The notes under the pieces: generated by a model | What the model saw: the letters and a program-made list of their open reading frames with translations, nothing else | Database searches by the model: none | What the model was told of the DNA's origin: nothing | Shown here: positions 29,102-48,434 of the stretch, one piece after another | Layout of the letters: every line of letters starts with the position of its first letter | Position numbering within the stretch: position 1 is the first letter of the stretch | DNA from: Candidatus Peregrinibacteria bacterium | Lineage (GTDB): Bacteria; Patescibacteriota; Gracilibacteria; UBA1369; LOWO2-01-FULL-3 | Direction of reading: 5' to 3' | Length of the DNA stretch: 64,000 nt | NCBI GenBank assembly: GCA_030688025.1 | Contig: JAUYJL010000003.1 | Location: 1-64,000 of the forward strand | Translations under genes and position numbers: made by a program

Positions 29102-29764
29102 TTAAGATTTTAAACCGCTCACCAAATCCATCAAAACGCTATAAGGATCATCAGCTCTGACCACTCCTGAAGCCAATAAAACCCCACTCGCCCCAAGCGC
29201 CAAAGCAATCCTCACATCTTCCCCGTCCTTGATTCCCGCTCCGACCAAAACATTCCCACTCCCCACCAACTCCACTGCTTTTTCTATAATCGCAGGCTCG
29301 GTTTTCGAAACAGACAAATCCCCTCCGATAAGTTCCGGAGGCTCAACCGCGACCAAATCAGGATTAAACCCAGAAATTTTCTTCGCCCTATCTCCATCAT
29401 TCGCACAAGCAATAACAAAAAGTCCTGCACGCTTCGCCGCATTTATACATTTCTCCAAATTTTCATTTTCAAGCTGAAATTCCGCATGATTCAAAAGCGT
29501 CCCATAAGCCCCAACCCCTTTCACCATATCCGGCAAAATATGTCCGGTGTGCCCTCCATATCCCACAAAATCCGTATGTTGAGCAAAAACAGGAATAGAA
29601 ACCGCCTCGCAAACTTTCACCAAATCAAGCGCAGAAACCGCAATACAAATATTCGCACCGGTTTCTTTCGCAACCCGCTCATGAATTTTCGCTAAAGCAA
29701 CGGCACTTCCACCCGTCCCTTGCTCGTACGCCTTAAAATTGACTAAAATCAAAGGTAATTTCAT
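29102..29764 (-). CDS. tpiA: Triosephosphate isomerase, archaeal-type short form
   Basis: Interconverts dihydroxyacetone phosphate and glyceraldehyde 3-phosphate. Seen in 220 aa: NFKAYEQGTG (Asn/Lys active-site pair), LLNHAEF (catalytic His region), AVEPPELIGG (catalytic Glu region) and GAGIKDGEDVRIALALGASGVLLASGVV (phosphate loop). Usual bacterial TIM is about 250 aa with AYEPVWAIGTG. The 220-aa length, AVEPPELIG and the C-terminal loop are those of the archaeal-type enzyme. Its -10 box ends 6 nt from the ATG. hpf follows after 18 nt. Confidence 0.93.
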   Translation of the reverse strand: MKLPLILVNFKAYEQGTGGSAVALAKIHERVAKETGANICIAVSALDLVKVCEAVSIPVFAQHTDFVGYGGHTGHILPDMVKGVGAYGTLLNHAEFQLENENLEKCINAAKRAGLFVIACANDGDRAKKISGFNPDLVAVEPPELIGGDLSVSKTEPAIIEKAVELVGSGNVLVGAGIKDGEDVRIALALGASGVLLASGVVRADDPYSVLMDLVSGLKS

Positions 29765-29814: not shown

Positions 29815-30690
29815 TTAATGCCCAGATAATTTTCTTTTTTCCTCTGCTTCCATCAAGAAATTTTTGGCATTTTCCCTCGAAACAACAGGCACTCCTGTTT
29901 CCCGTTCAATACCTCTACGCGCATCACCGGCAATCCGCCCACCTTGCTTAGCAATTTCACAACTTTCCGAAAATCCATCAGGCAGCTTTTTCTTTGAGAT
30001 TTCCGTTGTCGTAGCCTCTGCCAACATATTCAAAACAAGTTCGAGATTCGTCATATTATCTCTCAAACTTTGTTTCTTCAGACCCTTAAACCGCTTATAA
30101 TCTTTCACTTTCATCCCAGCCCACTCATTAGTCATTTCATCCGTTAAAACCGCATACTCTTGCCCTTCCTTGACTCCTCTAGTTTGCCATTCATCTGTCA
30201 ATTCTTTGCATACTTCTATAGTTTTAAGTCTCTGATTTATCCATTCCTTGGAATACCCTTTTTGCAAATAATTTTTCATCACACGGTCAATCGATAACTC
30301 AGGATCTTCCGTCTCTTCAAGCCTTTCATAACCAACCTTGGCAAGCCAAAGCTTGATTGGTTCAGCTTTTGGACTCGGAACAGATTGAATAAGACGCAAA
30401 AGTGTTTCCACAGTCGCCACATCAGTTTCTCGCAACTTACCATCTTGAGCAATCATTTTCAAGTGGTCACAAAATGTGACCACTTCACTTCCTTCAGTCT
30501 TTAAGCGATTTTTAAGAGTCGTCCAATAACTTTTTGCCTTTTTGTAATCAGTCTGCTCTATCAACACAGCCACAACATCAATCACCGAAAAATACCAAAG
30601 TTCATGCTTTTCATCATAATATTTCCGAATATTGAAATTTTCAAAAACAACCGAAATATTATCCCCTATTTGTTTTTGACTATTCTCCAT
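29815..30690 (-). CDS. BRO-N / DinD-like antirepressor-family protein
   Basis: Seen in 291 aa: an N-terminal BRO domain with IRKYYDEKHELWYFSVIDVVAVLIEQTDYKKAKSYWTTLKNRL, then LMRLIQSVPSPKAEPIKLWLAKVG-like sequence and a C-terminal part matching the DNA-damage-inducible protein D type (ELTDEWQTRGVKEGQEYAVLTDEM, MTNLELVLNMLAEA, SCEIAKQGGRIAGDAR). BRO-N domains bind DNA and are frequent in phage antirepressors and mobile regions. The role in cells is unclear. No other phage gene lies nearby. It is transcribed away from the giant MORN-protein gene. Confidence 0.85.
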   Translation of the reverse strand: MENSQKQIGDNISVVFENFNIRKYYDEKHELWYFSVIDVVAVLIEQTDYKKAKSYWTTLKNRLKTEGSEVVTFCDHLKMIAQDGKLRETDVATVETLLRLIQSVPSPKAEPIKLWLAKVGYERLEETEDPELSIDRVMKNYLQKGYSKEWINQRLKTIEVCKELTDEWQTRGVKEGQEYAVLTDEMTNEWAGMKVKDYKRFKGLKKQSLRDNMTNLELVLNMLAEATTTEISKKKLPDGFSESCEIAKQGGRIAGDARRGIERETGVPVVSRENAKNFLMEAEEKRKLSGH

Positions 30691-30823: not shown

Positions 30824-30877
30824 ACTATGATAGCTTTAATAAAGCCCGAGAAAAAGGGCACTAAAACAAAAACAAAA

Positions 30878-33800
30878 ATGGCTATTAAAAAATTCCTAGA
30901 TTGTATCTCTAACTACAGTCAAAAACTCTCCCAAAAAGAGAACCGATTCGTGTATTTTGCTGATGCAGAAAAACCCGCCCCAGCAGAAACACAAAAAGAG
31001 CCAAAAGACATGAATCATGAGGAATTTAAAAAATATCTTCAAGAAAAAACAAGAGTAAGCATCGAAGGAACCGGTACCGATCAAAAATTCGTTTTTCCAG
31101 TTAAGAATCAAGCTACAGAACGCTTCCCATGGACCCAAGAATTCGAAGATAAACTTAAAAAACTAAACATTAAAGACCTAGCCCATCCAGTCGAAATAAC
31201 GCAAGCCGTCCTAGCGGAATTCGAAAGAGTCACGAAAAGCACAACAAGAGAAGCTTTAATTCCAGTAAGCAACGACCCAGCAAAAAAACTAGACGCCAAA
31301 AAAGAAAATCCAGCCTTCATCGAAAGAAAAAACTTCATCAGAACCCTATCCACAACTCTTCAAGAAAAATACAAAACCCATGCAGAAAAAATAACATGGA
31401 CACTCATAGAAAATGATGCAACCGACTCAAACAAATTTAAATTGCAAGCAACTGATAAAAAAACAAACGCCAAAATTGTGTCAATTTCCGCCATGGAAAG
31501 CCCTGCCATATTTATTGTAGGAACATCAGAGCAAAGCTTTCTTAACCCAACCCCGACTAAAGCACGATCCAAATTCGAAGAACTATTAAACTTACACCTA
31601 GAAGAATGGGGAGAAACATCAGTGGAACTTTCTGCCACAGAGGAAAAGAAAGCATACATAGAAACATTGCAAAACGTCTCCACAGATTTCGAGAAAAAAA
31701 CAGCCCCAGCCGAAATAACAGATCAGGAAACAAGAAAAGACATAGAGCTTTACTACAAACAAGCCGCAGAATCAATTGCGGAACTGTCAACCGACCAACT
31801 TAGCAAAATAATCAAATACAATAGCTTCCCTGTATCCCAATCCGACCTAGACTCCGCCTTCACGCACAACTGGACAAGAAATGACAGAGCAAAAGCAAAA
31901 GCAAAAGCCACTTTCACAAAAACCATTTCAGATAAACTTGTTCAAAAAGCAAACGCCACCTCAGCTGAAATTGCCAAAGAAACACCTACAGACAAAGCCC
32001 AAGCGATAGAGCACATAACAAAACTCCTAAGAGCCTTCACTAAGATTCAAAACGAAAAAGATATAGGATTTGTAAAAAATGCACCATTTGTTCTTAAAAA
32101 CTGCCTTAACGCGCTTTCAGCCCAACAAGACAGAAATGTACCCCGTGTCGCAATCAGCCAAGTGACAAAAGAGTACGAATTATTTGGAGTAAATTACATG
32201 CAAGGCGACAAAACCCCAGAAAAAATCAAAGCCACTTTTTATCAAGTGTTAAGAGTCGGTATCCCAGGCGCCGACAACGACCCAGAATACAAGGCAAAAA
32301 TTGACACACTCCTAGCCAAAGCTTTCCCGGAAGCAGAATCAAAAACCCCAGTAGAACTTTTAGAAAAAACAAAAAAAACATTTGATAGAACAATAGCAAA
32401 AGCCGGAGAGACAAGAGCGAAAGCTAAAGCGATATACGACAAAATGGCAGCAACAGACAAGAGATCAGCTTCAAACCCATCACTACCACTCTCAAGCATA
32501 ACAGCCTCTTTAGCCTCCGCAAAAACAGCTTTTGAAGCACCAACGAAAAAAATCCAAAATATTGTAGAAGGAAAAACAGCAGAAGGAACTTTTGACGCGA
32601 CTCATGATTTAACCAATGGTCGCACAATCGAAGACACTGGAACAGTAGAACAAGGAGAATTCCACGAAGGAAAATTAAAAAAAGGCCAAAGGGTTAATGC
32701 AATAGGCACAATCGAAGAAGGAGAATTCCAAAACAGAAACTTACAAAACGGAAGAATAATATTCACCAATGGAGAAATCCAAGAAGGAGAATTTGACACA
32801 AACACCAATCTAACCAGCGGTATAAAAATCGACCAAGACGGAAAAATCACAAAAATACCAGTGGCCGCACCCGCTCCAGCTCCAGCAGCAGAACAACCAA
32901 AAGTAAAATCATTGTCAGACGATATGACTGACTCAGGAATGGAAAATATGCGGACAGCAAAAGCGGAATTACAAAAACTAAGAGACAAGCTGAAAACCAC
33001 AGGCGAATTTGTAAGCGCAATAACTACAGATGGAGAAGGCTCACCCATGTTTACACTTACCACAAAGAAAAAGGGAGCATACCAAATTAAAATATTCCAA
33101 GATAGGAAAAAGCCCCCATATTTTATGGTAATAGGAACCCAGCTTACGAGTCCCCTGATAAAAACCCCTAAAAACCTGGCAAAGTATATAGAAGAGAACA
33201 AATTATTGAAAAAACCCGCAGCCGCTCCAGCCAAGACCGCACCCGCTCCAGCTCCAACTCCAGCATCGGTCTCAGCACCAGCCCCAGCCGCTTCCGCCCC
33301 AGAAGCCACAGCGGGAGAACCAGAACCTGACGCAAAAAGAGAACCAGAACTCACACAAGAATACAAAGCAAACCACGAGCAAACATTAAAAATGGCCACA
33401 GCGACCAGAACAAAAGCCGCAGAGACTTTAAGGAAGTCAAATGAAGTTCTAGCAAAAGCCAAAGCAACATTAACACCATTACCCGCAGACGTACAAACAG
33501 CAATTGATGAAGCACAAAAAGCCGCAAATGATTCTACAACCGCAGATCAACTAAAAGGAAAAGCCTACGCAGAAAACACCAACACAACGCCACATCGCAC
33601 AGAAATCGGCGAACGAACACCAGCAGGCATCCTCACAAAAGGACGAGCAGTAGACAAAGAAGGAACAATCCTAGAAGGAAACTTCGCCACCGACGGAAAA
33701 CAAGCCCTTATAAAAGGACGCGCAATTTTAAATGACGGAACAATCCTAGAAGGGAACTATGACCCCAACAGCGAGAACATAACAAAAGGAAAAGCGATTC

Positions 33801-36800
33801 TCCCATCTGGAGAAATCCAAGAAGGAGAATTCGATCCAAAAACGGGAAGTATCACAAAAGGAAGATCAATTTTGCCATCTGGCATAATCCTAGAAGGAAC
33901 ATTTGCAAATAAGACATTAGCTACCGGGACAAGAACTACAACTGATGGAAAAGTTGAAACATGGGAAAATGGGAAAAAAGTTGAACATTCAGCTCAAGCC
34001 CCAGCAGCAGCAGCAGCACCAGCAGGAGCCCCAACTACAGCCGCTCCAACAAAAGACTCCGCTCCAGCAAGAGTGGAAAAGAGAATAGACGCAACCACAC
34101 TAGAAACCCCTGATTTCAAAACCGCAACGACACCTGCAGAAAAAGCAGAACAAGCCGCACAAATCCAACAAATCGAAGAATTAATAGCAGCCGAAACCGA
34201 AAAATTAGAAAAATTAAATAAAACCCAGGGAAATCCACAAGCCTTAGCCAACGCAAAAGCTGCAATCGACTCAACATTAGTAAAGCTAAAATCAACATTA
34301 GAAAAACTAAAGAAAGGAGAAGTCCTAACGACAAATGGAAAAGAAAAATTCATGAAAGGCAGTAGCGGCACGGGAGCAGCAGAAGCCCCAGCAGACAGAG
34401 CAGCAGGAGCCCCAGCAAAAGCCAAAGAAGCCGCCCCGGCAGAACCAGAAATCCCTGCCACATACAAAACAAAATACGAAGAAACTCTAGCAAAAGCCAA
34501 AGCTACAAGAGCCCTCACTCATGCGTCAGTCAGAAATAAATCAAAACCACTAGATCCAACCGTACAAGCAGCAATTGATAATGCAGAAAAAGCCGCACAA
34601 GATGCCACAAAAAATCTAACAGGAAGCTACACTGATAAAAAAACATACACAGAAATCGGAGAAAAAACAGGAAAAATCGTAACAAAAGGAAGAAAAATCG
34701 CCCCAAATGGAACAACCCACGAAGGAGAATTTGATAAAGAACTGGGCGGCTTAACAAAAGGAAGAAAAACATCCCCAGACGGAACAATCCAAGAAGGAGA
34801 ATTTGACGCAAACACCGTAACCTTAAAAAAAGGAAGAATAATCCTCCCAAATGGAACAACCTACGAAGGAGAATTTGATCAAACAGGAAGATTAACAAAA
34901 GGAAGAAAAACATCCCCAGACGGAACAATCCAAGAAGGAGAATTTCATCAAACAGGATACCTAAAAAAAGGAACAAAAACCCTTCCCAACAGAACAATCC
35001 TAACAGGAAAATGGGACAAAGAAGGAAAGAAAAACGGAACAGTTACAGAAACTCAAGCCACAGCCGAAAAGAAAGAACCCACAACAGCAGAAAAAATTGC
35101 AAAACTCAAGAAACAAATCGACAAACTTTACGCACAAAGAGATAATCCTAACACATCAGGTGCTCAAGCAAGCGAAATTGGAGACAAAATAATAAAACTT
35201 GAAAACCAAGTCAAAGGACTTGAAGCCGCCACCGCCGAAAAGAAAGAACCCCCAACAACAGAAGCACAAGCAGAAGCACCAGCACCTACCCCTCCTCCAA
35301 CCACAGAAAAACCAGCCGCCCCAGAAGCCACACCGGAAGTCCAACCGGAAAACGAAGTAATCACAAACGCTGTAGCCATAGCCGATGCCGCCGCAAAAAT
35401 AGCAAATGAAGCTGCAAAAACAGCAGCTACCGCTGGAGAAAGAACGCCAAAAGCCGGAGAAAGACCAGCAATATATAGAAACAAACAAGGAACATTGTTT
35501 ACAGGTATCGTTGGCGAAGACAATAAATTAGTAGAAGGCAGAGCCATAACAAAAAAAAATACAAAATTCGAAGGATTAATTGATCCAAAAACAAGACAAA
35601 TCATATTTGGACGAATAACATTGAAAACTGGAGAAAAATTCGAAGGAGAATTTCATCCGGCAGAAGGGGGAAAAGCAGCTCAGCTTAAAGAAGGAAGACA
35701 TGTAAGCGCAGACGGAAAGACAACAGAAGAAGGATTATTCGACAAAGATTCAAACAAACTTATCAATGGCCGACGAATAACAACCTCAACCGCCGGAAAA
35801 CTCATTGAAGTCGGAAAATTCGACAAAGACACAGGCAAGCTCATAGATGGTAAAAAAACAAAAACAGACGGCACGATTGAAGTCGGAAAATTCGACAAAG
35901 GCACCGGCAATCTCATAGATGGCATACGAACATTGCCAAATGGCGACAAAGAAAAAGGAAAATGGAACCCAGACGGAAAACCAAATGGAGCTATAGAAAA
36001 AATCGCAGCCCCGGTCAACCCAACTACAAAAAACATTACCAACCTTGCCTCCAAAAACATAATAATAAGCGGAGAAAAATTAAACCTACCGGACGCACAA
36101 GCAAAAGCTATTGAAACCCTATCAACAGCACTAGAACCAGCGCTTCTTGCAGCCAAAACCCCAACCGAAGTTCGAGACATTCTGGAAAAACTCTCGACAA
36201 ATATATCAAAAACATTAGTAGCCGTCGACAAAGACACAGGAATCAAAAAAATCGAATTCCCGGCATTTGGCATCACATGGACAAACCAACCAATAAACCA
36301 ATTTGACCTAGCGGGAAAAGACAGCTTCAGAAAATTAATAAAGAAAATCTCAGGAGCCAAAAAAGAAAAACATGGTCCACGCTCACCTGAATTCGAGACA
36401 TTCAGAAAAGAAATAAAAAAATACGAAGACACAAGCGCAAGACTGGAAACAGACGCAAGATATAAAACCAACTACAAAGCCCTCGCAACAAAAACCAACC
36501 TTGTCGACGAAAGCGTCCACAAACTCGGCGAAGACGGGATCGAGGCAAAATGGGCATTCATGAAAGGCCACGGAAGAATTGACAAAATTCTTACAACCGA
36601 CGAAGGTCCATTCAAACTGGACGACACCCAAACAGGAAGATTCGTCGCACAAGTCATCACGGAAGGCTTAGACTTCAAAATCGACCTGGAACATATTTTC
36701 AAATTCGCGGCACAGTACAATAAAGATTTCCCTCAAGATTTCGGAGATTTCATGAAAAAATATGAAACACTTTCAGCTAAAGCAAACAAGACCCCCGATG

Positions 36801-39800
36801 AACAAAAAGAATTAGCAAAAATGTTCAACGAAGTTCTATCCCCTGCCCTAAGACTTCTCGAATCAATACAAAAACTTCGCTACAACCAAGAAAAAGCAAA
36901 AGAAACCGCCGAAATTCTTACTCCAAAACAACAAAAAATCAGAACAAGCCTATCCTCAATGTTCACCTATTCCGAAAGAGAACCGGGAAAATGGGAACGC
37001 CTCATGGGCTGGATGCAAGGAGTGGAACATGTAGACGCAGATGACGAAAAAGCAGGAAAAGTCCCTGTCCTAACAGACCTAGACGGAGAAATAAAATATC
37101 TCGACAGAGGAATCCTAAGACGCTCATTCGATCCAAAAGCCGCATACGCCAAATTCATTGAAACAAGCGGAGCAATCACTGTCGATGAAAACGACAAGAG
37201 AACAATAGATCCTGTAAAAATGCTCGCAAAAACAAACGAATTGATCGCCCTTGGAGGAAGAAGCATAGCGATACGAAAATTAATGCTAGGAGAAGGAAAA
37301 AAATCTCTCGATGAATTACAAAAAGATAAAGATTTCGCAAAGAAGCTAAAAGCACTCGTCCCAGCTCCGCTCACTGCCGAAATGATGGCAGAAACAAAAG
37401 AAATTCCAAAAGAACAAATGGAAGCATTCCAGCTTGGATTCATTCTTGGCGAAGACATGCAATACGACACAGAATTGGCAGAGACTCAAGCACTATTAAG
37501 AGAAGAGAGTCCTGAAAACGCAAAAAATCCTGCAATAGAAGCCCTACTCAAAGACCTCGAAAAACAAGGAGTATCAAAAGAGGACATCATAAATGTAGAA
37601 GCGCAAATATTAGCAATGGGCGCACTTACTTTCAACCAACACGGAGACTTGCAAGGCGCAGGAGTCGCATTCAACAAAAAAATCAAAATAGGAAAAAACA
37701 CAACCTTAACCATCGGAGGAGGAAAAACAAGAGAAGGAACAAACATAGGCGCCGCACTGACATTCAGCATATATGAGGGAGAAAACTTCAAATGTGGCTC
37801 AACATTAGAATTCGATTTACGAGGAGTTGGCGCTAGCTTAAATACATCATGGGAAGACGTAAACATAGGAATAGGCAGAGCAAAAATCTCATTCTCAGTG
37901 GGAGGAAGACTCGGAAAAGGTATTTCCCTTGGAGCCGGAGTCCTCATCACCCGTAGAAATGTGGCCTTAAGAATCGCAGAAAACAAAGCCAATCTCGAAA
38001 AAGAAACAGGCATAAATTCACAGGAATGGGAAGCATTCAAAGCCTCAAAAGGTAAACCTACAGAAGAAAGATATGCACTTCTTAAGAAAGTAACAAAACT
38101 ATACAACGCAATCGTAATCCCATATAAATCAACATTCCCGGGAGACCAAGCCGTTCAACACAGAGACATAGTCTACATGATGGACAGCTTCAAAGACGCA
38201 GTCACGGACAAAGCCGTAGATCAAATCGCAAGCTCACCATGGGAATTTTTCCAAGGAGTCGGAGTTGTCGCGACAATATACCCTCCATTCTTCATGCTTG
38301 TAGGAGTGTTCAAACTTGGTTCCGCAAAAGTATTCATACCAAGCAGAGACAAACTCGGAAAAATCAAAGACAAAATCTCAAACAAGATAATGCGCAGAAA
38401 ATTGGAAGTTGCACTTCAGGAGGCAGAAAAAAGAATGAAAGAGGGAAAATCTATCGGAGTGGAAGCCCCAACGATTGAAACAAGAACATATGGACCTGCA
38501 AGAAAAATAGACTTTAAAGGAGCACAAAAAACAGCAAACCTAGTCTACAACAGCGCAGAAACCGCAGAAATAGACCCAAACGGCTCACCACGAGTCACTA
38601 CCTCCAAAGCAAGAACTTCTTTCGCCGACCTCCTGAAAGAGACCGATGAACCGGAATGGAAAAAAGTTGCAGACCCTACCAAAGAAACTCCTCTTGAAAT
38701 CGAAGCCGATAAACTAAAACGCTTCAACAAAAAACTTCTTAAAGAAGTACAATTACAACTTGGCGAAGACAAAGACGGAAAACGCGAACTTAAAGTATTA
38801 AATACTTATAATAAAGATGTTGAAGTCTATATCGACCCTCGTATCCCACGTGAAGAACTCGGATTGACGGTCGAAGGAGGCAAACTTTACATCACCGGAG
38901 ATATCGACAAAATCGCAATCACTCGCGAAAGATTCTACATGCCGTTCAAATCACAAAAAAGCACAAGTAGCATAAAAGACATCATCGTCCTCGGAAACCA
39001 AGGCTCAGTCGCCGGCACAGTCGACAGAGAATATATAGAACGATATTCAAGCGCCTACGCCGAAAAACTTGAAGGAGACATGGGATTCTCACTGGAAACA
39101 GGATACGGAGAATCCGCTCAAGAAAACATAAAAGAAGGCCCACTCGCACCCGAAGAACAAACAGAAGTAAAAGCAATTTCAACGGCAAAAGCGGCAAAAC
39201 TAAAACAAAGACAAGACGAGCAAGCCGCAAGAGAAACAGGCAGACAACAATTCATAGCAGACGTAGAGAAAGGGAAAAAAGCCTACGATGCCCGCAAAAA
39301 AGAAAAAGAAACCCGCAAAACAGAAGCCAAAGAAATGGACACATCTACAGCCAAACGTACAAAAGCCTTGGACGCAATAAAAACAAAAGCTTTGAAAGAA
39401 CAAACAGTTCCACCAGCTTTCGATGCAGACATCGTAAGCCTTGCTAAAAATCCCGCATTCCGAAAAGAATTAGGAGAAATCACAGGCAATGATGAAAAAA
39501 TAAAAACCCTAATCTTAACATACGCAAAAAAGACAACCAGAAGCGGAAAACTTCTATATCCTGCCCTACAAAATATCACCAAAAAAGGCCACGAAAACGA
39601 AATCAATCACGCAATGATCGGAGTACTGAACAAATGGTTTCTCACCCTATTAAGGGATGACAAACAAAGCGACAAAGCAATCCATCGCACCCTTGCAGGA
39701 AGAATACGATTCGCAACACAAATATTCACAGAATCTTTCGAGGCATCACGAAAAGCAATCAACGCCCGCCTTCCGAACGATCAACAAATAACCATTTCCT

Positions 39801-40861
39801 CAGCAGAGATCGCAAAGGAAATAACAGACCGCATCTACAAAAAAATACGAAAAGGAGATTTCAAATTTAACGATATAAACTGGGGGAAAAATAGCCCAGA
39901 CATCCAACCAATCGAAGAAGGCTCAACAGTTTTTTCCACAACAAGATTAAGAAAGAAACATGGCAAAAAAGGTGCAGGAACTCTCGCGAAAACAATCGCA
40001 TACGTTTCAAAACCAGGCACTCAAGGACAAACTCTAGGGCTTAACAACGGCTTCATCAAAGCCGCGATGCAAGATTACACATTAAACACAGGAACACCTA
40101 AAGAACAACAAATCGCCCGCATACTTTTCGAGATGGCAAGCCCTTCTCCGGAAAAGGAGGTAAAAACAGCAGACCAAGCCCGCAGTTTTCTTACATCACC
40201 GCTAGCCTTAAGACTGGCCGGATTGGAAACACTCATGCTTGTCCCTAAATTCGGAAAAGCAAAATTCGACAAAATAAGTGAACTTTATGGGAAGATAACA
40301 AACCGAAACCCAAACCAATTCAACGCATTATATGCAAAGAAAGCATACAAAGACGCGGTAGACGCATACTTAGAAATAGTCAAAGAAGTCAGAGCCGCTC
40401 AATTAGCAGGCAAACCATATGAAAAAGAATTCGAATGGGGAAACGACAACTACAAACTCGTCCTAAACATGACAACAACTATCCAAACCGGCGCATATGC
40501 ACGTTGTGCAAACGGAACAGTCGCCGTAAAAGAAGACGGTGAAATCAGCATCTACAAAGTACAACCACCGGTTGAAGGAAAAGTATTCAAACCGGGTCAA
40601 CCTCCTCATGAAGAAGTACTCGAAGAACCAATCGCTGTCTACAGAGAATCCACAAAAACAAGAGTCAAATCAAAACAAAGCAAAGCCGAATTAAAATTCG
40701 CAACCGCCGTCGGCGTAAACATCGAAGACGAACCGGAAACAGAACCAAAGAAAAATGCAGCAGAAGGCCCAACAACTAAAATAGACACAAAACAAGCAAC
40801 CCCCCCCACACAAGGCGAAGTCCCTCCAAGTGGAGACACAGGAGAAGAAGAAGGATTTTAA
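30878..40861 (+). CDS. Giant MORN-repeat protein, 3327 aa
   Basis: Not assignable to a known family as a whole. Seen, in order: a ~90-aa domain at about 150-240 that recurs near 690-790 (core PAIFIVGT / PYFMVIGT); four clusters of MORN-like repeats (pattern GRxxxPDGTIQEGEFD, ~23 residues each) at about 575-660, 907-1034, 1255-1389 and 1527-1707, the later ones preceded by Ala/Pro-rich linkers and similar helical modules; a long helical part; a Gly-rich beta-strand stretch at about 2257-2364; a hydrophobic stretch at about 2449-2489; and Lys/Glu-rich helices to the end. No signal peptide is visible. Cys is very rare. The secreted giant protein gene follows after 31 nt, so both probably form one transcript. 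MORN repeats can bind lipids or build scaffolds; function here unknown. Confidence 0.85.
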   Translation: MAIKKFLDCISNYSQKLSQKENRFVYFADAEKPAPAETQKEPKDMNHEEFKKYLQEKTRVSIEGTGTDQKFVFPVKNQATERFPWTQEFEDKLKKLNIKDLAHPVEITQAVLAEFERVTKSTTREALIPVSNDPAKKLDAKKENPAFIERKNFIRTLSTTLQEKYKTHAEKITWTLIENDATDSNKFKLQATDKKTNAKIVSISAMESPAIFIVGTSEQSFLNPTPTKARSKFEELLNLHLEEWGETSVELSATEEKKAYIETLQNVSTDFEKKTAPAEITDQETRKDIELYYKQAAESIAELSTDQLSKIIKYNSFPVSQSDLDSAFTHNWTRNDRAKAKAKATFTKTISDKLVQKANATSAEIAKETPTDKAQAIEHITKLLRAFTKIQNEKDIGFVKNAPFVLKNCLNALSAQQDRNVPRVAISQVTKEYELFGVNYMQGDKTPEKIKATFYQVLRVGIPGADNDPEYKAKIDTLLAKAFPEAESKTPVELLEKTKKTFDRTIAKAGETRAKAKAIYDKMAATDKRSASNPSLPLSSITASLASAKTAFEAPTKKIQNIVEGKTAEGTFDATHDLTNGRTIEDTGTVEQGEFHEGKLKKGQRVNAIGTIEEGEFQNRNLQNGRIIFTNGEIQEGEFDTNTNLTSGIKIDQDGKITKIPVAAPAPAPAAEQPKVKSLSDDMTDSGMENMRTAKAELQKLRDKLKTTGEFVSAITTDGEGSPMFTLTTKKKGAYQIKIFQDRKKPPYFMVIGTQLTSPLIKTPKNLAKYIEENKLLKKPAAAPAKTAPAPAPTPASVSAPAPAASAPEATAGEPEPDAKREPELTQEYKANHEQTLKMATATRTKAAETLRKSNEVLAKAKATLTPLPADVQTAIDEAQKAANDSTTADQLKGKAYAENTNTTPHRTEIGERTPAGILTKGRAVDKEGTILEGNFATDGKQALIKGRAILNDGTILEGNYDPNSENITKGKAILPSGEIQEGEFDPKTGSITKGRSILPSGIILEGTFANKTLATGTRTTTDGKVETWENGKKVEHSAQAPAAAAAPAGAPTTAAPTKDSAPARVEKRIDATTLETPDFKTATTPAEKAEQAAQIQQIEELIAAETEKLEKLNKTQGNPQALANAKAAIDSTLVKLKSTLEKLKKGEVLTTNGKEKFMKGSSGTGAAEAPADRAAGAPAKAKEAAPAEPEIPATYKTKYEETLAKAKATRALTHASVRNKSKPLDPTVQAAIDNAEKAAQDATKNLTGSYTDKKTYTEIGEKTGKIVTKGRKIAPNGTTHEGEFDKELGGLTKGRKTSPDGTIQEGEFDANTVTLKKGRIILPNGTTYEGEFDQTGRLTKGRKTSPDGTIQEGEFHQTGYLKKGTKTLPNRTILTGKWDKEGKKNGTVTETQATAEKKEPTTAEKIAKLKKQIDKLYAQRDNPNTSGAQASEIGDKIIKLENQVKGLEAATAEKKEPPTTEAQAEAPAPTPPPTTEKPAAPEATPEVQPENEVITNAVAIADAAAKIANEAAKTAATAGERTPKAGERPAIYRNKQGTLFTGIVGEDNKLVEGRAITKKNTKFEGLIDPKTRQIIFGRITLKTGEKFEGEFHPAEGGKAAQLKEGRHVSADGKTTEEGLFDKDSNKLINGRRITTSTAGKLIEVGKFDKDTGKLIDGKKTKTDGTIEVGKFDKGTGNLIDGIRTLPNGDKEKGKWNPDGKPNGAIEKIAAPVNPTTKNITNLASKNIIISGEKLNLPDAQAKAIETLSTALEPALLAAKTPTEVRDILEKLSTNISKTLVAVDKDTGIKKIEFPAFGITWTNQPINQFDLAGKDSFRKLIKKISGAKKEKHGPRSPEFETFRKEIKKYEDTSARLETDARYKTNYKALATKTNLVDESVHKLGEDGIEAKWAFMKGHGRIDKILTTDEGPFKLDDTQTGRFVAQVITEGLDFKIDLEHIFKFAAQYNKDFPQDFGDFMKKYETLSAKANKTPDEQKELAKMFNEVLSPALRLLESIQKLRYNQEKAKETAEILTPKQQKIRTSLSSMFTYSEREPGKWERLMGWMQGVEHVDADDEKAGKVPVLTDLDGEIKYLDRGILRRSFDPKAAYAKFIETSGAITVDENDKRTIDPVKMLAKTNELIALGGRSIAIRKLMLGEGKKSLDELQKDKDFAKKLKALVPAPLTAEMMAETKEIPKEQMEAFQLGFILGEDMQYDTELAETQALLREESPENAKNPAIEALLKDLEKQGVSKEDIINVEAQILAMGALTFNQHGDLQGAGVAFNKKIKIGKNTTLTIGGGKTREGTNIGAALTFSIYEGENFKCGSTLEFDLRGVGASLNTSWEDVNIGIGRAKISFSVGGRLGKGISLGAGVLITRRNVALRIAENKANLEKETGINSQEWEAFKASKGKPTEERYALLKKVTKLYNAIVIPYKSTFPGDQAVQHRDIVYMMDSFKDAVTDKAVDQIASSPWEFFQGVGVVATIYPPFFMLVGVFKLGSAKVFIPSRDKLGKIKDKISNKIMRRKLEVALQEAEKRMKEGKSIGVEAPTIETRTYGPARKIDFKGAQKTANLVYNSAETAEIDPNGSPRVTTSKARTSFADLLKETDEPEWKKVADPTKETPLEIEADKLKRFNKKLLKEVQLQLGEDKDGKRELKVLNTYNKDVEVYIDPRIPREELGLTVEGGKLYITGDIDKIAITRERFYMPFKSQKSTSSIKDIIVLGNQGSVAGTVDREYIERYSSAYAEKLEGDMGFSLETGYGESAQENIKEGPLAPEEQTEVKAISTAKAAKLKQRQDEQAARETGRQQFIADVEKGKKAYDARKKEKETRKTEAKEMDTSTAKRTKALDAIKTKALKEQTVPPAFDADIVSLAKNPAFRKELGEITGNDEKIKTLILTYAKKTTRSGKLLYPALQNITKKGHENEINHAMIGVLNKWFLTLLRDDKQSDKAIHRTLAGRIRFATQIFTESFEASRKAINARLPNDQQITISSAEIAKEITDRIYKKIRKGDFKFNDINWGKNSPDIQPIEEGSTVFSTTRLRKKHGKKGAGTLAKTIAYVSKPGTQGQTLGLNNGFIKAAMQDYTLNTGTPKEQQIARILFEMASPSPEKEVKTADQARSFLTSPLALRLAGLETLMLVPKFGKAKFDKISELYGKITNRNPNQFNALYAKKAYKDAVDAYLEIVKEVRAAQLAGKPYEKEFEWGNDNYKLVLNMTTTIQTGAYARCANGTVAVKEDGEISIYKVQPPVEGKVFKPGQPPHEEVLEEPIAVYRESTKTRVKSKQSKAELKFATAVGVNIEDEPETEPKKNAAEGPTTKIDTKQATPPTQGEVPPSGDTGEEEGF
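34751..34945 (+). repeat. 54-nt exact direct repeat inside MORN cluster 3
   Basis: Positions 34751-34804 and 34892-34945 are identical over 54 nt, 141 nt apart, which equals two MORN units. Neighbouring units are similar only at protein level, so this copy pair arose recently by unequal recombination or gene conversion, keeping the frame. Confidence 0.8.
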
Positions 40862-40892: not shown

Positions 40893-43800
40893 ATGAAAAC
40901 AACACAAAAAATATTCTTATCCTTAGTCTCCTTAACAACGATACTGTTAACCACTTTTACGGTACTGGCAGACACAGTAGTGTTAAAATTCACTCCATTC
41001 GAAAGAGCCACAAAATCATGTATAGACAACACATGTGGAATCGATGGATTGTCCTATACAAGTTTCAATAGTTTCCTAAAAAATCCAAACATAGGATGGG
41101 ATTGGGCAAACAACAAGATAAATCAATTCGATCCACGAGCCGGAGATGAAAGAAACTTACTCGTTGGAAAACTCTGTAAAAAAGACGTAGCAGAATGTAC
41201 AGCACAAAATCCATATGACTCCTCTTACGATAACAAAATAACAAGTCTTCAAGATGGAGATACTCTTAGATTTTCAGTATACTATCACAACAACGGAAAA
41301 GACGGAGATTCGGCAACAGAAGCAAAAAATGTACAAATAGGGATAAAACTAAAAAACGACGACGGATCTCTAAAAACACTAAATAATGAACTACATCCAA
41401 TAGGAGTAATTCGCGCAAATAATAATACATATAGAACAATTCTCAATGATCCTACCAAAGTAATAAAAGTAAATGGCGTAGACCTACATACAGCCACAGA
41501 CGACATAGCAATAGAGATGCCAACCTTTGACTTCACTTTGGAACCAGTAGCAGGTTCAATTTATGTAGCGGCAGGAGAAGATTTCATGAATCAGCAAGAC
41601 AAAAAAGCGATCCAAGTTTCATCAGATGCAAATAATAAAACAAAATTAACATTTAAACCTACCGGTAAACCCGCGATCACATCAACATTGCTTGCCAGCA
41701 TAGACAACGACAAAGGAAAAATGTGGGTTGACTTCGACCGCCTCCCAGGCTGTTTTCGATATAGTGGATTCGTTTATTTTGATGTAAAAGTCGTGAAGAA
41801 ACCGGAGCCGGTAGCTTCAATATGTTCAGAATTAAAAGTCGTAAAAGAAGCAATCAACGAGCCAAAACTCCAACTTCAACCATCATACAAAATCTCCGCA
41901 ACTCCAACATTTGCCCCTACAAATACAGTTCCAGACACAACACAAATCCAATGGAGCACAACCGACAGCAAAGGTAAATTCTGGCAAAGAATAGAAATGG
42001 CAGTCCCGGGGCAATACAAATATTCAGACATCACCGCCTCAGGCGGATCTTCCCCCGGAGCATTGTCAAATCCCGATGAAGAAATCTTCTACACAGGCTA
42101 CGGAACAGTCTCCGCAAAACTGACGGGCATCGCAGACAATTTAGCAAACCCAACCAAGTGTACCGACAAATTCACTCTCACTCCCCCACCAATATGTACA
42201 AAACTTGAAGTGAATTACCCTGAAACGGTAACAGTCGGCGTAATTTCCGACTTCATGGCAAAAGCCACAATCACAAAAGATGATAAAACAACAGCAGACT
42301 TCCAAGGCCAAATCAAATACTGGGTGGACAACATAAACGATGGAAGATTCTATTCTGCCCCTCCATCAGAATATCCATACATGACTCAGCCATATAAAAT
42401 AGCCTTTGGATATACACCGGAAACCCTTCAAGGAGAAGCAAAAAAAACAGGCCAAATCGGAACACAATCCGTAACAATAAACCAAAAAGTTTGGACACAT
42501 TTCGTAGGAATGAAGGCCACAGGCCAACAAGTCCACATTAAAGCCTACGATCCAACAGGCATTATAGACGTCTCAAAATGTAAATTGGACTTACCAATCG
42601 CACCAGCACCAAGCTGTAAGGAAATCTCAGTAAACAAACATTCAATCATAACAGAAGGCCAAGTCACCGAATTCTCAGCAATAGGAAAAGATTATGCAGG
42701 AAAAACATTCAACGGGAAAGTCACATATTCCGTTCCTCCAGAATACGGAACATTCTACACCGACCCAAATGATGCAGATGTAAATACCGCAAAAGCAAAC
42801 ACATCTAAATTCACAGAACAATACAACGAAACACAAGTAGGAGATCTTAGCAAAATAAAACCACAAGACGGCGATTTCTGTAAAAATCCGGTACAACTAC
42901 CAAAAGACTTAGCCCCTACCATAGCAGGAAATCCAAACACAATTCCTTCCGCTCTCGACATAATCCTCGGGCAAATGTATGGGACAATACCTCTTCAATC
43001 AATCAAAGATATAATCGACATAGGAAAATTTGGAGCAAATGGAATGATCGATCCAAACACCTCAGATTTGGTTAATCCATTAAATCCAACAGGAGAAACA
43101 ACCAACCCCGGCGCAACAAACATTTTCGGTGCATTCGGCCAAGAAAAACTAACTCAAGCCGACAAAGCAAAAATATCCGGATTCAACCAAAAAATACTAC
43201 AAGTAAAAGCCGGAGATCCGCAAAAAGGCTCAACAATCGTAGTCGATCCAAACACAAAAGTATATTTCGTTCCAAAAAAAGGATCAGAAGGTCAAAAAGT
43301 CGTTTCCGTATCCATAAATTGTAGCTCTAATTCATGTAGCAAAACATTCGAGATCATATCTATTCCAAAAGAAATACCGATCGTCTGTGAAGCCTCAGGC
43401 CTAACAGTTACAGACATGAAAACAAATCAAAAAGTCTCATGTCTGAAACAAGGAGAATATCTCCTAAATACAGGATTCTACCAAGATAAAGATCAGAAAA
43501 TATCTCTCGCGCCTCCAAAAGACATATCCGTAAAATGGGAATCGACAGACCCAAATAGCCTATTCTACGACATGTCTTCAGGCGCTCCTGCAAATCAAAA
43601 TGGAGCCAAGAGCCCATTTGTAGCAAGCCTTTCCGTAAAATACATCGGTGAAGGTCAAGTCACCTCCTCCCTCATCGCATTAAACGGAAAACAATACACT
43701 CAAAAATCATGTTCAAAATTCATTCCCCCATGTACAAAAAATTGTGAATCACTAACATTTACCTCAAACGGTGAAGCATTCCCACCAAATTCACCGGGAC

Positions 43801-46800
43801 TAATCGCACAAAAAGACCAAGCTATAAAACTTTCACTTAACACGAAAGACAACCAAGGCAATCCCCTTCCAGACGACACGAAATTCAATTTCGTATGGAA
43901 CACAAATGGGGAAGTGACAGACTCAAAAGGAACCAAAAACACAGAAACCGGAAAATTTTCAACGACCATAAACAATCTTCCTCTGATATTTTCAGGAGCG
44001 GACAAAATCGGCCAAATCACCGCAACAGTCGACAAATCAAGCCCTCTTTACTCAGAAAAATGTAAAGCCGACATCTCGATTTTGCAACCTGAGATCCCAC
44101 CGGTCAAACCAGAAGAACCATTAACTTGTAAAGAAATATCAGTCATAGATGTAGCCACAAACAAAGCTCCATCTCTTGCTCCAAACGGAATCTACCAAGT
44201 CAGGGCAAAAGCTCAATACTCAAAAACTGTGATCGCAAACAACACTTTTGCAGTAAAACAAGGAATGGGCGTAGTCGTCTCAATGTCGAGCAACCCACTA
44301 ATAAAATCACTTCAATTAGTAGTATTAAACGACCTAAGACTTTCAGAAAATCTTACAGCTGAAGGCAAATTGAAAACATTATTCACACTCCTTCCATCTC
44401 AAACAGTCGCAGACGGCCAAACAGCTTACCTCGTCACATATAGCGACGTAAAAGTCTCAGACAAGGAAGCCTTGGAAGTAAAAGCGGAAAAATTCTCAAC
44501 TCCCGCTGATTGTGACAAATTCTTCCCACTAACTTACACACCACCGATACCAAAACCGGAACCTACTTGTGACACTCTAAGCATCGTCAAACCTACAAGC
44601 CCATGGACCGCCGACGGAATGACAATCGATCCATTCGAAATCAAAGTCACAACAACTCCGGCAAACAAAGAAGGCGAATTCTCGTACACTTGGGAAACAG
44701 ACAAAACCGGAACATGGAACAGCACAGGAAAAACAACAGACAAAACCGTAGGCATCCTCACAAACACATTAAAAAATGCTGAAGGCGGAACAACTGTAAA
44801 AATCCAAGCCTTGGACAAAACAGGCGCAAAAATTCCAAAATGTTTAGCGACAATCACAGCAAACCCAGCTCCACCACAAGGCACAATTTGTGACAGTTTA
44901 ACTTTAGAAAAACCAACAAGCCCATGGACTGCTAATAAATTAGGAGAAGACGACTTCAAAATCAAAGTCGAAACAAGCCCCCAAGGCAAAGAAAGCGAAT
45001 TTCTGTACGCTTGGGAAGTGAACAAAAACGGAACTTGGACCAGCAACGGCCACGCAACAGACCAAGAAAAAGGATTACTCACAAACACTCTCAAAAACGG
45101 ACAAGACAGCACAACCGTAAAAATCTATGCGCTGAAAGATGGCAAAGAAATCACAAAATGTTCAACCACAATCAAAGCGGAACCAAAACCGGCAAACCCG
45201 ACAATTTGTAAGAGCTTGAACATCAAAACTCCAAAAAGCCCATGGATCGCAAAAAAATCAACAAAAGAACTATTTGAACTTGATGTCCTAACTGACCCAA
45301 AAAGCAAAGAAAAAGATCTTACATACATTTGGAAAGTAACAGACAAAAAAGGAGAATGGAGCAACGGAAAACAAGAAGACAGAACAAGCTCCCTTAAAAA
45401 CTCTCTCGAAGATGCAGAAGACGGCACAACTGTCGAAGTCTACGCACAAGACGAAGACGGAAAGAAAATCAAAGAATGTTCCGACACAATCAACGCAAAA
45501 ACAGTACGAAGCCCTATCATGACAAAATCAGTCTATGCAACAAGCCCAAAACCAACAAACACAACAAAAGACATCCTAAACATGGGCGCTTCCTCAAGCA
45601 AAAAACTTGTCACATACAAGATCCAATTCAAAGCAAATTCCGCCGAAGAAGTGGACATCTCTGAAAAAACTATGTCAAACGGAATCATCAAAGGTAACAA
45701 AAACGGAACAATGGGCTACAAAGGAATGATAATCAATGCCACAGAAGGCACAGGTCCCGATGCAAAACGCACCCTTCTGAAAGACGGAAATTATCAAACA
45801 GAAACAGAAGACACATACTTCCGTGGACATGATTTCAAATTAGCCGACCTTCAAAACCAACACAACTGTAACAACGGAACTCTAAAAGCCGACGCCATCT
45901 GTATCGACAATCCAGACTTTACAAGTGTAGTAAACAGATTCAAAGACGGCTACGCAATTCCATTCAAAAACATAAAAACAAACCTGAAAAACACAGTCAT
46001 CGAAATCAAGGTCCAAATGGAAATCACAAACACAATCGACGATACTACTTGTAAAGGACTTTCTACAGCAGACGGTTGTGGAGAAGAATTCAACAACAAC
46101 GCCAAATTCGAAGCCACGATACTTTACGGTGGCAAAGAAAACGATTCCGTCTCTGCAAAAGTCATCGTGATTTGTCCTTACGTTCTTACAAGACAAGCCG
46201 GCGATGTATTCTTCTACGACGCCCTCTCAACTGGAATCGACGTATCACGTTGTTCCGAAGTGAAAAGCACTCCGGGACTTGTCGTCCAACCTGAAAAGAA
46301 ACAAACAACCACAGTGACAAAAACAGGTTCAGGAGACCTACCGGACGAAGCAAAATTCCTCTCAGTCCCTTCACATGACATTTGCCGCTACAGCAACACA
46401 GGAACAAATGTAGAAGGATACGATGACGTCCTCAAAAACTTCTCAAGTACAATTTGTGAAATGCGTGCAGAAGTCGCAGAAACTTGGAAAGAAGCCTATA
46501 TCAATGAATCAATCAAAGCCAACGTAGAAAGAATCTCAAGATTCGGTCAAAACCTGAAAGATCAAAATCAACAAATCTCAAACATGACAAGCTTGCAAGA
46601 TCTTGATAACGCGCAAAGCGGAGTCTTCGTCAAAGAAGGCGGAACACTTACTATCGGAAGAAATGGAACCTTCGAAATCAATTCTTTCGCCCTAAATAGA
46701 TCCGAAAAAGTCCCTGCCGGCCAAACATACATCATAAAAGGCGGAACACTTCATATCAAATCCGACATCATCTACGGAGAAACAACCTACGAAAATCCGA

Positions 46801-47168
46801 AAAAGATCCCATCAGCCGCATTCATTGTAATTGATGGAAACATCATCATCGACAACAATGTCGGACAAATCGACGCCATCATAATGGCAATCGACACAGA
46901 CAACAGTGGCGACGGCAAAATCACAAATGCTACCATCGACAAGTCCGGAAATTTACATTTCGACGAAAACGACACCTCTGATCGCAAACTCGTCATCAAC
47001 GGAAGTTTGATCGGAAATGTCTCCGAACTCTTCAGTACACGTACAGGCGCCGGCGATCCTACAAAGGACGAAGGAGCCGTCACAGTTCGTTACGACGAAA
47101 GAATATTGCTCAATACCCCACCGGGACTAAGTGATCTTCTAAACATCACACAATCATTGATTCCGTAA
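40893..47168 (+). CDS. Giant secreted Cys-containing surface protein, 2091 aa
   Basis: Seen: an N-terminal signal peptide (KIFLSLVSLTTILLTTFTVLA) cleaved near residue 27; a series of beta-rich, Ig-like-looking domains, many beginning with a single Cys (CxxL... and CKEISV-type starts); three clear ~95-residue tandem repeats at about 1224-1322, 1331-1425 and 1437-1532, each with a PTSPWTA-like start, a W...G.W core and a closing Cys; and a C-terminal Gly/Asp/Ile-rich repeat region (about 1909-2066) that looks like a beta-helix, ending DERILLNTPPGLSDLL. Paired Cys per domain suggests disulfides outside the cell. No C-terminal anchor or LPXTG motif. Probably a cell-surface adhesin or stalk. Cotranscribed with the MORN giant gene; a terminator follows. 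Confidence 0.85.
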   Translation: MKTTQKIFLSLVSLTTILLTTFTVLADTVVLKFTPFERATKSCIDNTCGIDGLSYTSFNSFLKNPNIGWDWANNKINQFDPRAGDERNLLVGKLCKKDVAECTAQNPYDSSYDNKITSLQDGDTLRFSVYYHNNGKDGDSATEAKNVQIGIKLKNDDGSLKTLNNELHPIGVIRANNNTYRTILNDPTKVIKVNGVDLHTATDDIAIEMPTFDFTLEPVAGSIYVAAGEDFMNQQDKKAIQVSSDANNKTKLTFKPTGKPAITSTLLASIDNDKGKMWVDFDRLPGCFRYSGFVYFDVKVVKKPEPVASICSELKVVKEAINEPKLQLQPSYKISATPTFAPTNTVPDTTQIQWSTTDSKGKFWQRIEMAVPGQYKYSDITASGGSSPGALSNPDEEIFYTGYGTVSAKLTGIADNLANPTKCTDKFTLTPPPICTKLEVNYPETVTVGVISDFMAKATITKDDKTTADFQGQIKYWVDNINDGRFYSAPPSEYPYMTQPYKIAFGYTPETLQGEAKKTGQIGTQSVTINQKVWTHFVGMKATGQQVHIKAYDPTGIIDVSKCKLDLPIAPAPSCKEISVNKHSIITEGQVTEFSAIGKDYAGKTFNGKVTYSVPPEYGTFYTDPNDADVNTAKANTSKFTEQYNETQVGDLSKIKPQDGDFCKNPVQLPKDLAPTIAGNPNTIPSALDIILGQMYGTIPLQSIKDIIDIGKFGANGMIDPNTSDLVNPLNPTGETTNPGATNIFGAFGQEKLTQADKAKISGFNQKILQVKAGDPQKGSTIVVDPNTKVYFVPKKGSEGQKVVSVSINCSSNSCSKTFEIISIPKEIPIVCEASGLTVTDMKTNQKVSCLKQGEYLLNTGFYQDKDQKISLAPPKDISVKWESTDPNSLFYDMSSGAPANQNGAKSPFVASLSVKYIGEGQVTSSLIALNGKQYTQKSCSKFIPPCTKNCESLTFTSNGEAFPPNSPGLIAQKDQAIKLSLNTKDNQGNPLPDDTKFNFVWNTNGEVTDSKGTKNTETGKFSTTINNLPLIFSGADKIGQITATVDKSSPLYSEKCKADISILQPEIPPVKPEEPLTCKEISVIDVATNKAPSLAPNGIYQVRAKAQYSKTVIANNTFAVKQGMGVVVSMSSNPLIKSLQLVVLNDLRLSENLTAEGKLKTLFTLLPSQTVADGQTAYLVTYSDVKVSDKEALEVKAEKFSTPADCDKFFPLTYTPPIPKPEPTCDTLSIVKPTSPWTADGMTIDPFEIKVTTTPANKEGEFSYTWETDKTGTWNSTGKTTDKTVGILTNTLKNAEGGTTVKIQALDKTGAKIPKCLATITANPAPPQGTICDSLTLEKPTSPWTANKLGEDDFKIKVETSPQGKESEFLYAWEVNKNGTWTSNGHATDQEKGLLTNTLKNGQDSTTVKIYALKDGKEITKCSTTIKAEPKPANPTICKSLNIKTPKSPWIAKKSTKELFELDVLTDPKSKEKDLTYIWKVTDKKGEWSNGKQEDRTSSLKNSLEDAEDGTTVEVYAQDEDGKKIKECSDTINAKTVRSPIMTKSVYATSPKPTNTTKDILNMGASSSKKLVTYKIQFKANSAEEVDISEKTMSNGIIKGNKNGTMGYKGMIINATEGTGPDAKRTLLKDGNYQTETEDTYFRGHDFKLADLQNQHNCNNGTLKADAICIDNPDFTSVVNRFKDGYAIPFKNIKTNLKNTVIEIKVQMEITNTIDDTTCKGLSTADGCGEEFNNNAKFEATILYGGKENDSVSAKVIVICPYVLTRQAGDVFFYDALSTGIDVSRCSEVKSTPGLVVQPEKKQTTTVTKTGSGDLPDEAKFLSVPSHDICRYSNTGTNVEGYDDVLKNFSSTICEMRAEVAETWKEAYINESIKANVERISRFGQNLKDQNQQISNMTSLQDLDNAQSGVFVKEGGTLTIGRNGTFEINSFALNRSEKVPAGQTYIIKGGTLHIKSDIIYGETTYENPKKIPSAAFIVIDGNIIIDNNVGQIDAIIMAIDTDNSGDGKITNATIDKSGNLHFDENDTSDRKLVINGSLIGNVSELFSTRTGAGDPTKDEGAVTVRYDERILLNTPPGLSDLLNITQSLIP

Positions 47169-47420: not shown

Positions 47421-48434
47421 TTGACAGAACAAACAACATCCGAACCTCAAGGCAAAGCAAGCATTTTTCTTATCTTCGGCGAAGATAATTTTTCCTCAAA
47501 CCAAAAACTAAAATTTTACCAAGACGGATTTTCAAAAAAATACGGTGAAGACAGCAACATAGAGGCTCTCGACGGGAAAAAACTCGACATCAAAAACTTC
47601 GAAACTGACCTGCAATCACTCCCCTTTCTGTCAGAAAAAAAAATGATAGTAATAAAAGATTTATTCGCAGAACGAGATGCAGAAGAGCAAAAAGAAGTGG
47701 CAAAAATAATAGAAAAAACTCCTGAATTTTGCGTATTGATTTTCTACGAAACAGCAAACGTCAAAAAAACGTTATCATTGTATAAAAAAATTGCACAAAT
47801 AGGAAAAATAGAAGTATTCCCTGCCCTTTCTCCTCAAGAAAGTGCCCAATGGATAATGAAAAAAGCAAAACAAGAAAATATAAAAATATCCATCATCACG
47901 GCAAAAATATTAGCAGACCGCGTTTCAGGAACGCTCTGGACCCTCACGAACGAATACGAAAAATTAAAAACATTCGCAAACGGCGAGGAAATCACAAAAG
48001 CGATGGTTGAAGAATTAGTCCTGCCAAACATCTCAGCATCAATTTTCCACATGACAGATTTTATCGGTGGCAAAAAGCAAAAAGAAGCAATAAGCACATT
48101 TGAACTTATCGAAGAATCCGAAGGGAATGCCCCCCAAATATTCTTCATGATTGTCAGACATTTCAGATTGCTAATCCAAACTTTCGACATGCTAAAAAGA
48201 GGAGAATCACAACAAAGTATTATGAAAAAATTAGGAATACAACCATTCGTCGTCCCAAAAATGGCATCACAATGCAAAAATTTCACAGAAAAAGATCTAA
48301 TTGAAATTTACAAAAAATTACTTAAAATAGATACAGACTTCAAAACAGGCCAAATAAAAACTTCAGCTCAAGACAATAGTCACCACAAACTCGCAATAGA
48401 AAAATTCATAATTGATTGCTGTAAGAAAAACTAA
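47421..48434 (+). CDS. holA: DNA polymerase III subunit delta
   Basis: Opens the sliding clamp as part of the clamp loader. Seen in 337 aa: IFLIFGEDNFSSNQKLKFY at the N-terminus, LPFLSEKKMIVIKDL, ILIFYETANVKKTLSLYKKI-like Rossmann part, then the all-helical ALSPQESAQWIMKKAKQE...RVSGTLWTLTNEYEKL and a C-terminal helical collar (FFMIVRHFRLLIQTFDML). All three HolA domains are recognisable. The start codon is TTG at 47421; no ATG occurs before the conserved part. A bulged hairpin begins directly after its stop. Confidence 0.92.
   Translation: MTEQTTSEPQGKASIFLIFGEDNFSSNQKLKFYQDGFSKKYGEDSNIEALDGKKLDIKNFETDLQSLPFLSEKKMIVIKDLFAERDAEEQKEVAKIIEKTPEFCVLIFYETANVKKTLSLYKKIAQIGKIEVFPALSPQESAQWIMKKAKQENIKISIITAKILADRVSGTLWTLTNEYEKLKTFANGEEITKAMVEELVLPNISASIFHMTDFIGGKKQKEAISTFELIEESEGNAPQIFFMIVRHFRLLIQTFDMLKRGESQQSIMKKLGIQPFVVPKMASQCKNFTEKDLIEIYKKLLKIDTDFKTGQIKTSAQDNSHHKLAIEKFIIDCCKKN

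Follow-up and report, generated by a model that had tools for sequence, protein, structure and literature searches.

Giant proteins of CPR bacteria have often been noted, but have rarely been grouped into families. The genomes of Ca. Peribacter riflensis differ mainly in large variable proteins (PMC4736985), Vampirococcus lugosii encodes giant membrane proteins (PMC8080830) and Peregrinibacteria figure in a list of bacterial phyla in which huge proteins are overrepresented (PMC11573180). Here we analysed a stretch of 64,000 nt (the window) from a genome of 1.18 Mb in 34 contigs; a single gene, P1, takes up 15.6% of the window (Table 1). P1 resembles the giants of P. riflensis and Vampirococcus in being a very large protein of a small, host-dependent genome. 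In contrast, those giants have been described as membrane or extracellular proteins, in Vampirococcus with common adhesion domains, whereas P1 carries neither a Sec signal nor a Pfam domain. A search of the open literature, with preprints and most subscription journals outside its scope, found no description of this locus, of the gene pair that it contains or of the leader described below. The initial annotation of this DNA had reported a 3327-residue protein covering about 16% of the window in a presumably small CPR genome, and this agrees with the open frame, with the genome size and with the names of the locus relatives, which are Candidatus Peribacteria and Peregrinibacteria MAGs. The important structural role that it attributed to the protein is not shown by our results.

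Table 1. Features of the P1 locus, in order of their position in the window
Feature	Position	Strand	Basis
tpiA (triosephosphate isomerase), divergent left neighbour marking the locus	29102..29764	-	Pfam TIM, E 6.8e-31
Promoter-like TTGCAT-17-TATAAT 5′ of P1	30795..30823	+	Read from sequence
P1, 3327-aa giant, no Sec signal	30878..40861	+	Open frame read; start backed by L022 indel
N-terminal leader of P1 (residues 1-33), MAIKKFLDCISNYSQKLSQKENRFVYFADAEKP	30878..30976	+	Consensus K-E-x-R-[FL]-[VIL]-[FYW]
First copy of ~90-aa alpha/beta domain (residues 147-250)	31316..31627	+	Aligns with second copy, z 5.4
Domain, residues 258-470	31649..32287	+	Common to L038/L046 only, 43% identity
MORN cluster 1	32567..32851	+	Own-unit HMM
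Second copy of ~90-aa domain (residues 681-785)	32918..33232	+	Alignment to first copy
Helical module before MORN cluster 2 (residues 826-905)	33353..33592	+	Match to block 3 module, z 9.5
MORN cluster 2	33599..33979	+	Own-unit HMM, cluster profile
Helical module before MORN cluster 3 (residues 1191-1262)	34448..34663	+	Alignment; helices in AlphaFold model
MORN cluster 3	34649..35044	+	phmmer, profile, AlphaFold/Foldseek
MORN cluster 4, divergent units	35462..35968	+	Own-unit HMM, AlphaFold
Conserved core (residues 1850-3290), defines P1 family	36425..40747	+	Alignment, profile
Eight-strand beta-meander, proposed beta-barrel (residues 2244-2359)	37607..37954	+	Model, pLDDT ~50-75
Hydrophobic beta-hairpin joining barrel in model (residues 2458-2480)	38249..38317	+	Sequence, AlphaFold, VIA
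C-terminal strand beside barrel in model (residues 3272-3281), low confidence	40691..40720	+	AlphaFold, VIA
P2, 2091-aa partner, Sec-type signal, conserved C-terminal part	40893..47168	+	Sequence, homolog comparison
holA (DNA polymerase III delta), conserved right neighbour	47421..48434	+	Pfam, E 1.1e-26

Searches of P1 against Pfam, NCBIfam and PHROGs returned no family, save one PHROG of unknown function that covered the MORN part of the protein. Relatives of residues 1801-3327 were found in 28 of the 60 genomes searched, and their alignment revealed a conserved region of ~1,440 residues, preceded by an N-terminal half that varies in length and content. Across 16 diverged sequences, 23 columns of this core were invariant. 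When the core profile was run against 240 sampled genomes of the phylum it produced seven hits, all of them within this order, and against PDB sequences it gave nothing credible. As judged from the sequence, the C-terminal core defines the P1 family, which within our sample is confined to this order of Peregrinibacteria, and P1 is a member of a previously unnamed family of giant proteins in these tiny uncultured bacteria.

The family also occupies a fixed place. Throughout the order, relatives have a tpiA homolog immediately beside the P1-type gene, P1 homologs are followed at small gaps by P2 homologs, either directly or with one small gene between them, and holA homologs adjoin P2 in most of the relatives compared. 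P2 likewise matched no family in Pfam, NCBIfam or PHROGs. As measured by hydropathy only, a signal-like hydrophobic segment was present within the first 60 residues of 20 of the 21 P2-type proteins and of none of the 23 P1-type proteins. The initial annotation had set a giant without export signal beside a secreted giant downstream and had proposed a search of CPR genomes for the pair; this search was run, P1 itself contained no signal-peptide-like segment by the same measure, and the pair recurred at the same place across the order within its tpiA/holA surroundings. The identification of P1 as a Sec-secreted giant adhesin was rejected, for it is P2, and not P1, that has the N-terminal signal peptide.

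In the genomes missed by the P1 search, the place beside tpiA often still held a giant gene. The core was recovered there by profile in three of them (G012, G045 and G042) and a P2 homolog in G032, while the frames of G035 (L092, 3620-17901, at least 4760 aa) and G044 (L097, 884-17509, 5541 aa) carried the leader and were unmatched by the core profile; they look like even larger members, or replacements, of P1. In G031, no giant lay beside tpiA. With its constant locus, its partner gene, its leader and its conserved core, the P1 family can be recognised in any genome of the order and is open to testing. Two further observations concern the locus itself. A gene with a BRO-N domain, of mobile-element type, is located between tpiA and P1 in the window (29815-30690), with none at that place in the related loci L022 and L023. 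Between P1 and P2, loci from one taxonomic family within the order (L039, 8721-9257; L041, 8101-8637) encode a membrane-anchored protein of ~178 aa that looks cohesin-like by eye.

Comparison of close relatives revealed a different history for the core. Nine neighbouring genes of L023 (genome G002) are 91-98% identical to those of the window, and the 5′ half of its P1 gene is conserved; its P1 homolog is 70-83% identical to P1 over residues 1501-1700 but only about 26% identical in the core, whereas L022 and L024, which are more distant, are 46-52% identical to the P1 core. The fall in identity between L023 and P1 is sharp, lies near residue 1700 and is flanked on either side by conserved sequence. 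A tree of tpiA grouped the window with L023 (support 96), a pair that the core tree rejected (AU p = 6e-8). An assembly chimera at this core is unlikely, because the 350 residues of the P2 homolog that lie on the L023 contig still match at 66%. On this sequence evidence, the pattern reads as the replacement of the core allele.

The initial annotation had divided the N-terminal half of P1 into four blocks, each made of a helical module followed by MORN repeats. All four clusters were recovered by an HMM built from the window's own units, and a cluster profile and AlphaFold with Foldseek confirmed their MORN identity. The unit spans ~24 residues (KGRxIxPDGTIxEGEFDxxTGxL), at least 13 units reached E < 1e-3 with the own-unit HMM, and none of the shuffled P1 copies gave a match of that strength. 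Cluster 3 matched the MORN1 structure 6t4r by phmmer (E = 0.0015), and the cluster profile retrieved MORN1 (2.9e-10), RSP1 (1.2e-7) and RSPH10 (5e-6) from the PDB, together with further radial-spoke, junctophilin and MORN4 structures. Within residues 1190-1720, AlphaFold predicted beta-hairpin ladders (pLDDT about 85-93), whose best Foldseek matches were MORN1, radial-spoke heads and junctophilins. The Pfam MORN model (PF02493), at its curated cut-off, matched neither the proteins of the own genome nor the excised clusters. Because profile and predicted fold match MORN while the Pfam model does not, we regard the repeats as a divergent MORN variant that lies below the Pfam standard. They are like those of TbMORN1, RSPH1/RSPH10, the junctophilins and MORN4 in repeat length (~23-24 residues), in the beta-hairpin ladder and in being the best profile and structure matches; they differ in lacking the usual second Gly of GxG and in forming a lineage-specific insert in a giant bacterial protein. 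Rhs/YD-repeat proteins such as Tse5 and Tse15 were considered as well, as the MORN ladder gave weak signals of them in Foldseek and with Pfam RHS_repeat, and were rejected: RHS_repeat scored 16.2 bits against a cut-off of 22, and the MORN matches were far stronger. The initial annotation had held its reading to be at odds with any match of the clusters to a named family of known function; a match by profile and fold does exist, but MORN is the name of a fold and not of a function.

The modules that accompany the clusters were less uniform. Those of blocks 2 and 3 are homologous (z 9.5), that of block 1 is marginal (z 1.9-3.8) and block 4 contains a helix without sequence similarity to the modules of the other blocks, so that the four-block scheme holds for the clusters, and for the module in two of the blocks. 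The ~90-aa domain described as repeated is indeed found twice (z 5.4 against shuffles), and the Gly-rich beta stretch and long helices also appear in the AlphaFold prediction. With respect to distribution, each of the four genomes of the genus contained MORN units; within the order they were detected in 10 of 89 genomes, in part within other genes, and most P1 homologs lack them. Since they are present in the genus and only sporadic elsewhere in the order, the MORN blocks are, as far as sequence comparison tells, a lineage-specific addition and not the essence of the P1 family. The initial reading, which leaned on these blocks, was right about the identity of the repeats, but the conserved, fast-evolving part of the protein is the C-terminal core, of which it had noted no more than a beta stretch and helices. 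A tblastn search of cluster 3 against phage records found nothing, and a phage origin is not claimed. Other proteins from the order, either large or secreted (L102, G024:C5:79017; L105, G069:C26; L106-L108), likewise contained MORN-like units, the repeat cassette turning up in unrelated genes.

AlphaFold modelling of core residues 2091-3290 with ten sequences yielded a weak model (mean pLDDT 59.6), in which the beta-meander, the hydrophobic hairpin and the C-terminal strand come together. VIA-align of this weak model placed outer-membrane barrels at the top of its list (KdgM, Z 12.8, 154 residues at 3.1 Å), and the best Foldseek matches were again outer-membrane barrels, with E no better than 0.076. 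The barrel strands form the lowest-charge stretch of the core (10.7% charged residues vs a core average of 29.4%) and alternate between a hydrophobic face, 6% charged, and a face rich in Gly/Ala/Ser/Asn, 15% charged. Taken with the model, such strands would be more in keeping with a membrane barrel than with a soluble barrel. In the same weak model, strand order and barrel closure are predicted to be like those of the 12-strand outer-membrane porins of the KdgM/NanC type. The P1 core differs from these porins in having no sequence similarity to them, no signal peptide and no Omp85 in its genomes, and in that other domains totalling about 800 residues lie between its barrel strands. Indeed, the Sec signal and Omp85/BAM that accompany a porin were missing on both counts, with a signal in 0 of 23 P1-type proteins and Omp85 in 0 of the 21 genomes searched (control positive in 7 of 14). 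Based on the model, it is plausible that the core forms a porin-like membrane beta-barrel; it may instead be a soluble nitrobindin/lipocalin-like barrel, a fold that ranks lower in the VIA list.

We then considered the N-terminus. The first ~35 residues of P1-type proteins contain the motif K-E-x-R-[FL]-[VIL]-[FYW] after a short basic-hydrophobic stretch. With 216 other ORFs from these regions as the background, leave-one-out scoring of this leader placed 20 of 29 P1-type giants above the 99th percentile. A 341-aa protein encoded elsewhere in this genome carries the same leader at its N-terminus, as do the relatives of that protein and three further long ORFs (L130, L140 and L143). Occurrences were counted by DNA patterns with a reversed-pattern control. 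In 15 genomes, 12 of the 15 in-frame matches within long ORFs were N-terminal, six of them in non-P1 proteins; the total count in the own genome showed no excess over the reversed control, so that within these pattern counts it is the N-terminal placement that carries the information. From its sequence, it is best read as a portable non-Sec element, either a sorting or a membrane-targeting leader. Thus, the signal peptide that the initial annotation found missing is absent, but this is not the whole story, as a conserved N-terminal leader takes its place. A bolder though unlikely extension is that Peregrinibacteria possess an undescribed non-Sec sorting system which recognises this leader and delivers giants with a self-inserting, lineage-swapped barrel core to the envelope or to partner cells from a fixed two-gene locus. 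Should the leader be a real sorting signal, it would give a handle on the placement of the largest proteins in host-dependent bacteria that have no outer-membrane assembly machine, and the exchanged core would mark what these bacteria vary when meeting hosts or phages. As separate observations, the ~341-aa leader-bearing family (L052, 3443-4465 on the minus strand of G000:C15:16000-21500; relatives L114, L115 and L116) is found among consecutive large proteins, none with a Pfam domain and one with several hydrophobic segments, and a small extra gene that precedes a P1-type gene in L093 (791-1351) begins with a leader-like motif (AEKQKFIFLSIEKP).

Tentatively, we infer that P1 may act together with P2 as an envelope or contact protein whose placement depends on the leader and not on Sec. 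The two genes would constitute one module of this Peregrinibacteria order, in which the leader, that is, an amphipathic stretch plus the motif, would direct P1 to the envelope by a non-Sec route and P2 would exit through Sec. The variable N-terminal half, with its MORN ladders, helical modules and Ala/Pro linkers, could serve both as a long spacer and as an arm for protein-protein interaction, in line with a role of MORN repeats in protein-protein contacts and not in membrane binding (PMC7725318). The beta-barrel-like domain of the core would insert into, or lie against, the membrane at the contact zone, working there with P2, and the swapping of the core between lineages is what one would expect if this part faced other cells or phages. 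Against this model count the weak barrel prediction, the Foldseek E of 0.076 and the lack of Omp85, which leaves the 21 genomes without the machinery that normally inserts such barrels. The lack of a Sec signal throughout the P1-type proteins, and of a clear transmembrane helix in most P1 homologs, would also fit a cytoplasmic scaffold at the inner face of the membrane, where the MORN repeats and helices would organise proteins or the cell pole while P2 would be a separate, co-expressed surface protein. The MORN proteins whose structures are known serve as scaffolds inside the cell, and the leader, basic and amphipathic by inspection, could be a membrane-targeting helix that keeps P1 inside. 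We consider this arrangement possible but doubtful, for a cytosolic scaffold need not swap its core between close relatives, and strands that alternate and carry so little charge are uncommon in a soluble barrel.

The low confidence of the model and the weak Foldseek E-values could likewise indicate that the core is a soluble beta/alpha domain and no membrane barrel, its rapid change being due to loose constraint on a large spacer-like protein and not to exchange under selection; in large giants from other parts of the order, the core defies any alignment. However, the sharp drop at about residue 1700 and the AU rejection point to exchange and not to drift, and the invariant columns show constraint, so that we find this account quite improbable. 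We give just as little credit to P1 as a signal-less effector delivered on contact, with the barrel as its pore, the leader as the loading signal of a secretion device and P2 as a surface adhesin. Unrelated proteins carry the leader, as would be expected of a loading signal, the barrel-like core occurs in genomes without Omp85 and its exchange resembles that of antagonistic proteins. Nevertheless, no delivery device was identified, P2 is followed by holA and not by an adjacent immunity gene, and Pfam, NCBIfam and PHROGs gave no toxin family match. P1 also departs from typical polymorphic toxins in that almost every member has the gene once and in a constant position. The preferred reading remains that of a leader-dependent envelope or contact protein.

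Finally, we examined the 5′ region of P1. The mechanical ORF begins upstream of the start given in Table 1, at 30827. This earlier start was ruled out, because a 1-bp indel in the relative L022 breaks the frame between the two ATGs, while the 30878 ATG, the promoter-like element and the MAIKK/MAIRR start of the protein are preserved there; on this comparison, 30878 is the correct start. The promoter-like element is conserved in both L022 and L023, except for the end of the -35 in L022, and is absent from the list produced by a consensus promoter scanner. A small hairpin (GCCC-GAGAAAAA-GGGC, 30844-30859) is situated between the promoter and the start of P1. At this position L022 has other letters with the pairing kept (CTCC...GGAG), hinting that a 5′ leader RNA structure may be conserved.
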